Assembly: GCA_947073765.1 (NCBI GenBank)
Contig: CAMTMZ010000001.1
Span: forward strand, 1-64,000
Reading direction: 5' to 3'
DNA: 64,000 nt
Origin: an uncultured Bacillota bacterium
Lineage (GTDB): Bacteria > Bacillota > Clostridia > Oscillospirales > Oscillospiraceae
A model generated the notes under the pieces. It was not told where the DNA came from, made no database searches, and saw only the letters and a list, made by a program, of their open reading frames with translations. Every line of letters begins with the position of its first letter. The first letter of the stretch is position 1. Both the position numbers and the translations under genes were made by a program. This document shows positions 17,238-23,476 of this stretch, piece after piece.

Positions 17238-17308
17238 GTGGAAGGAATTAAGGCGTTTTGCTGACAGCGCCTTATATTTCTACAGTTGGAATTAAGAGAA
17301 GGGATGTT

Positions 17309-18115
17309 ATGAAGCAACACAAAAAAGCCCTAGTGCTGTGGATTGGAGCCGTACTGCTCCTGCTGATCGGGGCGCTGCTGGCCGGATTCCATGGCCGGAC
17401 AGAGAGCGTTCAGCAGGCTATGCGGGACGCGGTTCTCCATGATGTCAACCAGATCAGTCTGCTGGGCCTGAAGGCGGTGAACCCCGGTCTGATATCAGCG
17501 TTTTTGGTTACAGGGCTGATACTGCTTGCGGCGGCGCTGATTCGTGTCCTGGTTATCCCAAGGTTCCAATATATCCCAGGGAAATTTCAGTTGGCGCTGG
17601 AGGAGGCCGTAGGTCTGTTCCACGGAATGGCCCAAAACAGCAGTCCCCATCGATATGGTTTTGTGGGGGCGTACATTTTTGCGGCCGGGGCCTACATCTT
17701 TTTCGGTACCTTGTTTGAGCTGCTGGGACTTCAGGGCATCACGATCCACGGCCATCCTGTCACCCTGCCTGCCCCTCTGTCCGATGTCAACGCGGCTATC
17801 GCGCTGGGCACCCTCTCCTATCTGGTGATTCTCTCTGGGGGTATTGCCGCCAACGGCGCAAAGGGGGTGGGGAAAACCCTGAAGGAGTTCTCTTTGCCCA
17901 TCTCTATGAGCTTCCGTCTTTTCGGTGCCCTGCTCAGCGGGCTGCTGGTAACAGAGCTGGTTTATTATTATGTAAATCTAAGTTTTGTCCTTCCTGTTAT
18001 TGTGGGTGTAATGTTTACCCTGCTCCACGCGCTGATCCAGACCTATGTGCTCACAATGCTGGTGTCCATGTACTACGGTGAGGTGTCTGAGCCGTCCCAT
18101 AAGGCAAAGAGCTGA
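17309..18115 (+). CDS. atpB: F-type ATP synthase subunit a
   Basis: A 268-residue membrane subunit forming the ion half-channels next to the c-ring. The essential Arg lies in MSFRLFGALLSG, the counterpart of the RLFGN motif, inside the long penultimate helix. About five to six hydrophobic spans are visible. ATG 17309 follows AGAGAAGGG; the upstream in-frame ATG at 17258 would fall 20 bp after the -10 box and lacks a ribosome site. It is the first gene of the operon; no atpI-like assembly gene precedes it. The next gene is subunit c, 39 bp downstream. Confidence 0.93.
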   Translation: MKQHKKALVLWIGAVLLLLIGALLAGFHGRTESVQQAMRDAVLHDVNQISLLGLKAVNPGLISAFLVTGLILLAAALIRVLVIPRFQYIPGKFQLALEEAVGLFHGMAQNSSPHRYGFVGAYIFAAGAYIFFGTLFELLGLQGITIHGHPVTLPAPLSDVNAAIALGTLSYLVILSGGIAANGAKGVGKTLKEFSLPISMSFRLFGALLSGLLVTELVYYYVNLSFVLPVIVGVMFTLLHALIQTYVLTMLVSMYYGEVSEPSHKAKS

Positions 18116-18154: not shown

Positions 18155-18511
18155 ATGAACAGGCTGTTGAAAAAAACATTTTTCCTGGCGTCTATTCTTA
18201 TGCTTGCCCTGGCCCTGGCTGTGCCCGCCTTTGCTGCCAGTGACAGCGGCCCTGAGGGGGACGCTGCCATGGTTCAGGAGGATAACACCATTGGCCTGAA
18301 GGCCATCGCCGCAGGTATCGCCGTAGGCATCGCCGCCGCCGGCGGCGCGGTAGGCATGGGACTGGCGACCGCCAAGTCTACAGAGAGCATTGCCCGCCAG
18401 CCTGAGGCGGAGGGCAAGGTCCGTACCACGCTGATGCTGGGCCTGGTCTTTATCGAAACAGCCATCATCTACGCTTTGCTGGTGGTTATTTTGATTATCT
18501 TCGTGTTGTAA
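18155..18511 (+). CDS. atpE: F-type ATP synthase subunit c with N-terminal signal-like extension
   Basis: A 118-residue proteolipid, longer than the usual 75-90. Residues 1-27 look like a cleavable signal peptide (basic start, hydrophobic core, AFA cleavage box), followed by an acidic linker and the two-helix hairpin with the conserved polar loop ARQPE. The ion-binding Glu is in FIETAIIYAL. Compared with Na+ c-subunits such as Ilyobacter, the Glu and the Tyr five residues on are kept and Ser66 is Thr. The helix-1 position of Gln32 is Met, so the Na+ site is incomplete and proton coupling is the more likely reading. The ribosome site GGAGGG precedes ATG by 9 nt. Confidence 0.9.
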   Translation: MNRLLKKTFFLASILMLALALAVPAFAASDSGPEGDAAMVQEDNTIGLKAIAAGIAVGIAAAGGAVGMGLATAKSTESIARQPEAEGKVRTTLMLGLVFIETAIIYALLVVILIIFVL

Positions 18512-18527
18512 GGCAGGTGGAATATAG

Positions 18528-19010
18528 ATGCCCTTAAACATTGATCTGCAGCAAATTTTGCTGCATTGGATGAATCTGGCCATCCTCACCGGAGGACTGT
18601 ACCTTCTGCTGTATAAACCGGTGAAGGACTTTATGACCAAGCGGGAGGAGCATTACCGCCAGCTGGACGAGCAGGCGGCGGAGAAGCTGGCTCAGGCGGA
18701 GCGGGTCCAGGCGGAGTACCAAGCCAGATTGGACGGGGCGGATGAGGAGATTCATCAGGCCCGTGCCCGTGCCCAGCAGGCCATCCAGCAGTCCACAGAG
18801 GACCAGCTGGCCAAGGCCAGGGAGCAGGCCCGGCAGATTGTGGCCCACGCCCAGACGGAGGCGGAGCACAGTCGGGAGCGAGTGCTGCGGGAGTCCCAGC
18901 GGGAGCTGCGCAAGCTGGCTGCCCAAGCTACCAAAAAGCTTGCCTTCCACGTTGATCCCTTCGACCAGTTCTTAGACCTGGCGGAGGAGGGGGAAGAGTA
19001 TGAGGAGTGA
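18528..19010 (+). CDS. atpF: F-type ATP synthase subunit b
   Basis: A 160-residue peripheral-stalk subunit: one N-terminal membrane span (about residues 10-30, LLHWMNLAILTGGLYLLLY) and a long charged coiled coil rich in Ala, Glu and Arg. Length is normal, and its C-terminus does not contain a delta domain, unlike the b-delta fusion of mycobacteria. Its 3' end overlaps the next gene by 11 nt, exactly where a separate atpH (delta) gene would normally stand. Confidence 0.92.
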   Translation: MPLNIDLQQILLHWMNLAILTGGLYLLLYKPVKDFMTKREEHYRQLDEQAAEKLAQAERVQAEYQARLDGADEEIHQARARAQQAIQQSTEDQLAKAREQARQIVAHAQTEAEHSRERVLRESQRELRKLAAQATKKLAFHVDPFDQFLDLAEEGEEYEE

Positions 19011-20752
19011 CAGAAGCCGCCTGACAGCTCAGCTGCGCAGCGCCAAGGAACCCACCCAGGACCAGCAGCGCCGCTTTGCCGAGTTCCTGTCAAAAAAATA
19101 TAAGCGCAAGGTGCCTCTGCGCTGGGAGGAGGACGCCTCCCTGCGCTCTGGCTTCCGCCTTCAGGTGGGGTCGGATATCTACGATTGGAGCCTGGAGGGG
19201 CGCATCCGTCAGTTCCAGGACCATCTGCGCCAGATCCAGCCGGGGCAGGAGGAGCTGATGCCCTTGATGCGCCAGGCTGTGGAAGACTGGACCCTGGCTG
19301 TGGTGCCCGAAGAGATTGGACGGGTGCTCACGGTAGACAGTGAGATTGCCACAGTAGATGGTCTGGAGCACGCCCAATATGGCGAGATACTCCTGTTTAC
19401 CGGTGGCATTCGGGGGATGGTCCAGGATCTGCGCCGGGACGCGGTGAGCTGCATTATTTTTGGCGACGCGGAGGAGATCAGCGCGGGCAGCCTGGTCCGC
19501 CGCACCAAAAAGACCGCCGGCATGCCGGTGGGCGACGGGTTTTTGGGCCGGGTGGTGGACGCCTTGGGCGTTCCGCTGGACGGCAAGGGCCGCATCCAGG
19601 CGGAAGGCCGCCGGCCTATCGAGGCCCCGGCGCCCAGTATTTTGGACCGCCAGAGCGTCAATGCTCCCATGGAGACCGGCCTTCTGGCTATCGACGCCAT
19701 GTTTCCCATCGGCCGGGGTCAGCGGGAGCTGATTATTGGCGACCGTCAGACCGGCAAGACGGCCATCGCCGTGGACACCATTCTGAACCAGAAGGGGAAG
19801 AATGTGGTGTGTATCTATGTGGCAATCGGCCAAAAGACCAGCTCAATCGCCCAATTAGTGGAAAACCTGTCCCGGCGGGGAGCCATGGAGTATACCACCG
19901 TCATCAGCGCCCCTGCGGGGGCATCGGCGGCCCTGCAGTATATCGCACCCTACGCCGGCTGTGCCTTGGCGGAGCATTTCATGTACCATGGTCAGGACGT
20001 GCTCATTGTCTATGACGATCTTAGCAAGCATGCGGTGGCCTACCGGGCGCTGAGCCTTCTGATGGGCCGTTCTCCGGGGCGTGAGGCCTATCCCGGCGAT
20101 GTGTTTTACCTCCACTCCCGACTTCTGGAGCGGGCCGCTCACCTCAGTGATGAGCTGGGGGGAGGCAGCATGACCGCCCTGCCTATTGCAGAAACGCAGG
20201 CGGGAGATGTCTCCGCCTATATTCCCACCAATATTATCTCTATTACTGATGGTCAGATTTTTCTGGAAAGCGACCTGTTTTTTGCCGGCCAGAGGCCCGC
20301 GGTCAACGTGGGTCTGTCAGTCTCCCGTGTAGGAGGCGATGCCCAAACAAAGGCTATGAAGAAGGCGGCGGGCACCCTTCGACTGGACCTGGCCCAATAC
20401 CGGGAGATGGAAGTATTCACTCAGTTCTCCAGCGATCTGGACGATGCCACCAAGCGTCAGCTGACCTACGGTCAGGGCCTAATGGCTTTGCTGCGCCAGC
20501 CCCAGTACCACCCGCAGTCGCAGTATCAGCAGGTAATTTTGCTGGTGGCGGCGCTGGGACATGTGATGCAGGAGGTCCCCATAGACGACATTGACTGCTT
20601 TGAGGACCAGCTGCTGGCCTTCACAGAGGAGCAGGCACCGGACCTGTGCCAGCGTTTGGACCTGTCCGGACAGCTGTCACAGGAGGACCGGGAGGAGATT
20701 CTGGAACTGGCTCGAGAATGTCTGGAGCAGTTCCAGGCGGGCGGAAAGCGCG

Positions 20753-20760
<8 letters not shown>
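19000..20760 (+). CDS. atpA: ATP synthase delta C-terminal domain fused to subunit alpha
   Basis: A 586-residue protein, about 85 longer than ordinary alpha. Residues from about 85 on are a normal alpha subunit: Walker A GDRQTGKTA, the Arg-finger region SVSRVGGDAQ, and the usual C-terminal domain. Residues about 8-78 instead resemble the C-terminal domain of delta/OSCP: LRSAKEPTQDQQ, FLSKKYKRKVPL, then DASLRSGFRLQVGSDIYD and SLEGRIRQF, matching the family pattern D-x-S-L-x-G-G-x-x-(I/V)-x-(I/V)-G-x-x-x-x-D-x-S. No separate atpH exists between atpF and here. The N-terminal delta domain, which normally grips the alpha N-termini, is absent from the operon, as if covalent linkage replaced it. An internal ribosome site at 19247 with ATG 19258 could also yield a free 500-residue alpha. 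Confidence 0.88.
19247..19260 (+). promoter_or_regulatory. Possible internal ribosome binding site and ATG for free alpha subunit
   Basis: AGGAGG at 19247-19252, 5-nt spacing, then ATG at 19258-19260, in frame with the delta-alpha gene (Met87). Starting here gives a 500-residue protein, the normal alpha length, without the delta-like domain. The GGAGGAG also encodes Glu-Glu, so coincidence is possible. Confidence 0.5.
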
Positions 20761-23062
<2,302 letters not shown>

Positions 23063-23063
<1 letters not shown>

Positions 23064-23476
23064 TGGAGACATTTCAGGTGCATATCCTGGCTGCTGACCA
23101 AACGTTTTACGAGGGACCCTGCGTCAGTCTGACCATTACCACCACCGACGGCGAGCGGGGCATTCTGGCCAACCACAGCAGCATGATTGCTGCTGTCAAG
23201 CCGGGCACTCTGCGCTATCAGGTGCCAGGGGAGGAGGCCAGGCTGGCCGCCGTCTCCCCTGGCATGGTAAAGGTGGAGGACAACGACGTGCTGGTGCTGG
23301 TAGACTCCGCTGAACGCCCGGAGGAGATTGATATTGTTCGGGCTCAGCGGGAGATTGACGAGGCCCGGGAGATTCTGCTCCAAAAAAAGACCCGGCAGGA
23401 ATACCAGATTGCCCAGGCCACTATGGCCCGGGCTCTGAACCGCCTGCGGGTAAAGAACATGGGTATCGGAAGATAA
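23063..23476 (+). CDS. atpC: F-type ATP synthase subunit epsilon
   Basis: A 137-residue central-stalk subunit: an N-terminal beta-sandwich (residues about 1-85, with TTDGERGILANHSSMIAAVKPG) and a C-terminal helical hairpin (EIDIVRAQREIDEAREIL) that can inhibit ATP hydrolysis. ATG overlaps the beta stop codon by one base (TGATG). It is the last recognised synthase subunit of the operon. Confidence 0.93.

Follow-up and report, generated by a model that had tools for sequence, protein, structure and literature searches.

That an F-type ATP synthase has one peripheral stalk and one a-subunit for each rotor is close to dogma, and c-subunit number is taught to be evolution's means of setting the H+/ATP ratio. 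Mycobacteria retain a second, separate b-type gene. Their b-delta fusion (PDB 7jg5; PMC5709465) resembles the locus considered here in joining delta to another stator subunit, but there delta sits on b, so that each complex holds one copy (in a chain of 445 residues). A closer counterpart is man-made: Ueno et al. (2025; PMC12229609) built a delta-deltaN-alpha fusion in the FoF1 of Bacillus PS3 (PDB 9jc1), and their paper argues that the delta N-terminal domain (NTD), which lies on the threefold axis of F1, restricts stalks to one, a limit that the designed protein breaks. Specifically, the engineered enzyme averaged about two stalks and a-subunits, with a maximum of three, had an H+/ATP ratio of 5.8, and with its added stalks produced ATP at a weaker proton gradient; its activity was also reduced, it shed stalks while grids were being prepared, and it had no epsilon C-terminal domain. 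Nature is suggested there to have done likewise, and the natural delta-alpha cases cited are Acidaminococcus fermentans, in which the delta NTD is stated to be missing as it is in our locus (a comparison that follows the paper's description), and UniProt G4Q3K6 and A0A1I2C5T3, with "similar features". A sequence-only reading of our locus knew of no described delta-alpha fusion; the engineered and natural cases in that source show otherwise.

Here we compare with these systems a fusion found in a 64,000-nucleotide stretch of DNA from an uncultured member of the Clostridia (the whole stretch is called the window below). Its ATP synthase features, with the evidence for each and with CTD denoting the C-terminal domain, are as follows.

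17309..18115, + strand: a subunit (searched as 17303-18112, the start codon being approximate; PF00119, E 1e-15)
18155..18511, + strand: c subunit with a long hydrophobic N-terminal extension (PF00137, E 3.7e-15, residues 51-114 of 118)
18528..19010, + strand: b subunit, a single separate gene, 160 aa (PF00430, E 4.9e-15)
19000..20760, + strand: delta CTD-alpha fusion gene, 586 aa (PF00213 at residues 2-76; PF02874, PF00006 and PF00306; TIGR00962 at residues 83-570)
19000..19230, + strand: delta/OSCP CTD, residues 1-77 of the fusion (PF00213 positions 97-172 of 172; predicted fold; Foldseek)
19231..19311, + strand: linker and retained alpha N-terminal helix, residues 78-104 (predicted helix 86-96; alignment to 9jc1_I)
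19246..19260, + strand: purine-rich stretch followed by an ATG (M87), which might serve as an internal start but is not conserved among the relatives (codons)
19312..20760, + strand: alpha subunit core (Pfam, TIGR00962 and alignment to 9jc1_I)
20762..21652, + strand: gamma subunit, start codon assumed (PF00231, E 2.9e-89)
21660..23063, + strand: beta subunit (TIGR01039, 768 bits)
23063..23476, + strand: epsilon subunit with both domains, 137 aa (PF02823 and PF00401)

The gene order a-c-b-[delta CTD-alpha]-gamma-beta-epsilon is the one first read from the sequence, every subunit scores above its Pfam cut-off, and the 3' end of the b gene shares 11 bases with the 5' end of the fusion gene. Delta is here fused to alpha and not to b, which is a gene of its own. 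The c subunit carries about 48 additional N-terminal residues in the form of a hydrophobic, signal-peptide-like stretch, and c subunits of 120-125 aa also occur in several close relatives. Like the window, the N-ATPases (alternate F1F0) have no separate delta gene, but their operon order differs, and membership of that family was rejected: the fusion scores 615.7 bits against the alpha model TIGR03324 (cut-off 750.5), and TIGR03305, TIGR03306, TIGR03321, TIGR03322, TIGR03323 and TIGR03166 also stay under their cut-offs.

That a delta CTD is joined to alpha is borne out by two profile matches within one open reading frame, in which the residues quoted by the sequence-only reading are present. 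Residues 2-76 match the C-terminal half of the OSCP profile over its cut-off (E 4.5e-11, 43.6 bits versus 22.3), as the proposed check had anticipated, and residues 83-570 match TIGR00962 (atpA) at 720.2 bits versus 484.45; delta is not a separate polypeptide but shares a single reading frame with alpha. The N-terminal extension had been put at about 85 residues; the extension is real, and its length is about 77, since the alpha N-terminal segment (about 79-104) is retained. An AlphaFold model of residues 1-99 (mean pLDDT 77.3, pTM 0.59) has the order strand-helix-three strands-helix (E10-14, H20-34, E40-44, E53-56, E59-62, H65-78). When this model was searched against PDB structures, ranks 1-47 in Foldseek and ranks 1-46 in VIA-align were all chains of F-type ATP synthase entries, followed in both lists by V-ATPase or complex I. 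These lists give entry titles; several of the chains are named delta or b-delta by the other PDB searches, and the remaining F-type chains we take to be delta/OSCP. A profile from 48 fused sequences (residues 1-99) found 12 PDB sequences at E <= 0.01: delta, b-delta (one labelled "Multifunctional fusion protein") and the engineered delta-alpha.

The missing NTD and the missing delta gene could also be read from the rest of the genome (2.33 Mb in 61 contigs, a 96% complete draft). The N-terminal part of PF00213 is unmatched in the fusion gene and in the remainder of the genome; six candidates were scored, one matched, and it is the fusion gene itself, so that a delta NTD encoded elsewhere was rejected. 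No complete atpH, which would have spoken against the sequence-only reading, was found in this 96% complete genome, nor was any other alpha above the TIGR00962 cut-off. Two adjoining ATPase frames (592 and 463 aa; G000:C14:37605-40015) match the alpha model below its cut-off and probably belong to a V/A-type ATPase present in addition to the F-type enzyme. Also over cut-off are two genes for RnfC and two for the beta subunit of a Na+-pump decarboxylase (G000:C37:4563-5849, C5:30376-31641, C18:332-1393 and C1:114995-116062), which suggests ion-motive fermentation.

By sequence, then, the window protein is of the delta-deltaN-alpha type, i.e., a delta CTD on the alpha N-terminus, with no NTD and no separate delta gene. 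The whole-protein model is only fair (pLDDT 68.8, pTM 0.53), and a Foldseek search with it of 350,542 PDB chains returned the engineered chains 9jc1_I, 9jc1_J and 9jc1_K as the top three (565-574 alignment columns). Window residues 14-563 are co-linear with residues 10-563 of 9jc1_I, with gaps of 1 and 3 residues, the engineered junction being 3 residues longer; the two proteins thus share a delta CTD on alpha, the absence of a delta NTD, and a spacing equal to within 3 residues. They differ in that the PS3 enzyme is man-made and had its epsilon C-terminal domain removed, whereas the window epsilon keeps both domains.

The junction is conserved in relatives. In a scan of named genomes with N-terminal alignment, which used a query designed to find such fusions, all 80 named loci, these being the best 80 of 504 relatives, have a frame that continues from the delta CTD into alpha uninterrupted by a stop; alpha is complete in 74 of the 80 and incomplete in six, five of which lie at a contig end. 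Carriers include Flintibacter muris DSM 110149, Colidextribacter sp. OB.20, Neglectibacter sp. X58, Acutalibacter sp. 1XD8-33 and 1XD8-36, and Anaeromassilibacillus senegalensis An867. Across 81 sequences (the window included), 22 residues within positions 1-104 are at least 95% conserved, and NG86, a simple method for which dS is partly saturated here, gives median dN/dS values of 0.29 for the delta CTD, 0.41 for the linker and 0.16 for the alpha core; on these ratios the delta CTD is under purifying selection. A draft in 61 contigs might raise the suspicion of an assembly or annotation artefact, or of a decaying pseudo-fusion. We give that explanation almost no weight, given selection on the domain and a junction held in one frame at every named locus, strain-named isolates among them; assembly error and a missed stop are rejected because all 80 loci read through delta CTD into alpha.

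Beyond these loci, the fusion belongs to a natural series. OSCP and gamma are present in the same 40 of 60 close genomes, and one genus code holds separate delta, full delta-alpha and CTD-alpha. In the order, 207 of 394 genomes match the junction profile (plain alpha included), and delta and alpha lie in one frame in at least 70 of the 394; the corresponding one-frame counts are 34 of 391 genomes for the class and 14 of 398 for the phylum (both at E <= 1e-25). The one-frame counts come from manual reading of rows with no stop inside the matched stretch, and the three draws overlap in some genomes. Full-length delta-alpha fusions that retain all or most of the NTD occur at five loci (L031, L032 and L205-L207), and a stand-alone delta CTD of 72 residues adjoins an unfused alpha at L041 and L209. 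The latter (G278:C1:1701000-1710500) is in a single-contig genome with two F-ATPase operon copies; in the copy with the 72-aa delta CTD gene the alpha frame is broken. L207 has tandem c-subunit genes of 73 aa each (L207:6485-6961, - strand) inside its full delta-alpha operon. A 675-aa frame at L204:3041-5068 (+ strand) places a tandem pair of delta CTDs (two OSCP stretches) ahead of alpha, a form that would give six delta CTDs per F1. More than one junction-profile match was seen in G127, G409, G415, G287, G412, G309, G294, G369, G329, G265 and G214. One match is fused and, in most of these genomes, a second looks like a conventional pair of separate delta and alpha genes (both matches are fused in G415); these genomes probably hold two F-type ATP synthases of different design.

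The series extends to proteins in which b, delta CTD and alpha form one polypeptide, found in 17 genomes of the order. In 16 loci the length is 735-767 aa; the 17th (G178) is cut by a contig end. A 787-aa frame in G002 (L038) was rejected as a b fusion, since that locus lacks c and b, and the portion of the frame ahead of the delta CTD overlaps a in a different frame; it is counted as CTD-alpha. The 16 loci, each with the protein in one frame, are:

L039:3979-6210, + strand: b-delta CTD-alpha
L040:3607-5817, - strand: b-delta CTD-alpha
L190-L203: b-delta CTD-alpha

Their operons hold a (cut by the contig start in L203), c, b' (138-152 aa), the long protein, gamma and beta, with atpI in 11 of the 16 and epsilon in 15. 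At 83-121 aa, versus 137 in the window, this epsilon perhaps has no C-terminal domain, judging by length. The second b-type gene (b') is separate, as in mycobacteria. In all 16 the long protein opens with a hydrophobic stretch (Kyte-Doolittle averages of 2.0 to 2.8 across 19 residues) and a motif known from b subunits, after which come a charged region, the delta CTD and alpha. Among the eight proteins scanned, OSCP is over cut-off in all and PF00430 (b) in five (L039, L040, L190, L193 and L198); L203 falls just below (27.4 versus 28), L195 and L199 clearly below, and we read these three N-termini as b from their BLAST similarity, their hydrophobicity and the motif. No alpha other than the long protein exceeds the cut-off in 13 of the 16 genomes examined, four of the 13 being 62-87% complete (G201, G366, G372 and G344); G127, G409 and G415 have a second F-ATPase alpha. 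Because it is the only alpha found in those 13, each alpha of these enzymes would be tied to its own membrane b helix, unless the protein is processed. The sections of Ueno et al. (2025; PMC12229609) covered here make no mention of a b-delta-alpha protein, and our literature search, which covered mostly titles and abstract openings and few subscription papers, found none in print; among its results PMC12229609 and PMC5709465 alone concerned the fusion. Within the literature searched, four variants are new: the spread in Clostridia, the intermediates of full length, the tandem form and, most of all, b-delta CTD-alpha.

How the series arose was examined in trees of alpha. From 135 chosen loci, three had no alpha match (L044, L076 and L112) and 24 were removed (duplicates, near-duplicates by judgement, and the incomplete L173 and L209), leaving 108 rows for a quick tree; a careful, unrooted tree used the alpha core alone from 69 hand-picked rows, without the long branches L041, L042 and L045. 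The careful tree falls into three blocks: separate delta (16 rows), b-delta CTD-alpha (16 rows, support 100/100) and the rest, within which CTD-alpha forms a single clade (99/98) with the tandem form inside it. Full delta-alpha rows lie outside this clade, one of them as its sister (98/93); given this placement of the full-length fusions, it is most likely that fusion preceded the loss of the NTD. Among the full fusions stand three rows with a separate delta (L008, L009 and L012), so fission or refusion also took place. In the quick tree, L045, a long-branch CTD-alpha row, falls outside the clade beside the long branch L041, and three changes are then required for CTD-alpha, which counts against a single NTD loss; the position of the b-delta CTD-alpha clade has a support of only 22 there. 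A branch in the careful tree (97/92) sets all fused rows and the three separate rows on one side, so that the trees are compatible with one origin of fusion or with several. The suggestion that covalent linkage had replaced the NTD survives in part: the NTD is absent here, but simple replacement does not fit full-length fusions that keep all or most of it.

What the fusion means for stalk number depends on whether every alpha carries the delta CTD. Were unfused alpha made through an internal start or proteolysis, a single CTD-bearing alpha per complex could preserve the usual one-delta stoichiometry, which we regard as improbable. The purine-rich stretch of the window precedes the ATG of codon 87, where the alpha helix begins, and a Flintibacter muris locus (L082) shares its five codons; in addition, codon 90 is an ATG in 60 of the 81 loci, of which 17 have an SD of at least 5 in a loose count, and among the b-delta CTD-alpha loci any start codon with an SD of at least 4 precedes alpha in 5 of 16 (control mean 2.9). 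The loose count yields an excess at codon 90 (17/60 versus 8.7% of internal ATG/GTG codons) and at codon 109 (50/62), the latter of which looks like the effect of a preceding conserved Glu-Glu codon pair that resembles an SD. When spacing is required, however, codons 80-97 show an ATG with an SD of at least 5 in 2 of 81 loci (control mean 2.4) and an SD of at least 4 in 10 of 81 (control mean 7.3), ATG with an SD of at least 5 occurs in 0 of the 16 b-delta CTD-alpha loci (control mean 0.8), and true starts have an SD of at least 5 in 64 of 81 (loose count). A conserved internal start is not supported, as the spacing-limited test of codons 80-97 gives no excess.

We lean towards the view that the window gene encodes the sole alpha of an F-type ATP synthase, that an NTD-less delta became the alpha N-terminal domain, and that the enzyme accepts more than one stalk. 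Each of the three alpha chains would offer a delta CTD to bind the C-terminus of a b2 dimer and, because no delta NTD occupies the threefold axis, F1 could take more than one b2 stalk, each with an a-subunit, up to three. The extra stalks would raise the ions moved per ATP, such that ATP could be made at low ion-motive force. Gene structure, conservation, the lack of another delta match and co-linearity with the engineered protein are direct observations; a stalk number above one we infer from the likeness to the engineered design and from entries for a native enzyme, that of Chloroflexus aurantiacus (PDB 9itj series). Six of those entries contain 18 alpha, 6 gamma and 12 delta chains and 18 entries contain 72 b chains, i.e., 3 alpha, 1 gamma, 2 delta and 4 b per entry on average by PDB chain counts, from which this native F-ATPase seems to have more than one stalk. 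Its delta has the same CTD fold as the window protein but is a separate 157-residue chain, whereas the window delta CTD is fused, so this support is by analogy and from chain counts. Likewise, the multi-stalk state was demonstrated for the engineered PS3 enzyme and is predicted for the window enzyme.

Fusion in itself does not imply several stalks, since the full-length fusions keep all or most of the NTD, the very domain thought to limit stalks to one. The main alternative, an ordinary single stalk, with one fused delta CTD holding b2, the other two idle or packed on F1, and fusion only tightening assembly and saving a gene, would accord with this, with the one a gene and one b gene of the window operon, and with the statement in PMC12229609 that every ATP synthase known so far has just one a-subunit. 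We nevertheless think it rather unlikely: the engineered counterpart held, on average, about two stalks, the Chloroflexus entries have two delta and four b per gamma, and b-delta CTD-alpha would be left with two idle membrane helices. The multi-stalk reading would be fitted best by the b-delta CTD-alpha relatives, because in them a stalk helix would be attached to each alpha. The stoichiometry problem raised by the sequence-only reading (three alpha but one delta), and the reorganised peripheral stalk to which it pointed, are supported.

For the family as a whole, we advance as a tentative but quite possible claim that F-type ATP synthases in which two or three stalks are matched by an equal number of a-subunits occur widely among gut Clostridia, by way of delta-alpha fusion and NTD loss, and that one lineage also fused b, making three stalks built-in and no longer optional. 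To the engineered protein the present data add a series from nature that includes strain-named bacteria (Flintibacter muris, Acutalibacter, Neglectibacter, Colidextribacter and Anaeromassilibacillus), in which b-delta CTD-alpha is the stronger natural test, its three stalk helices being tied to three alpha unless processed. RnfC and the Na+-pump decarboxylase would suit a low-energy fermenter, in which a high ion/ATP ratio would pay. If the claim is true, the number of stalks would, together with the size of the c-ring, set the ion/ATP ratio.
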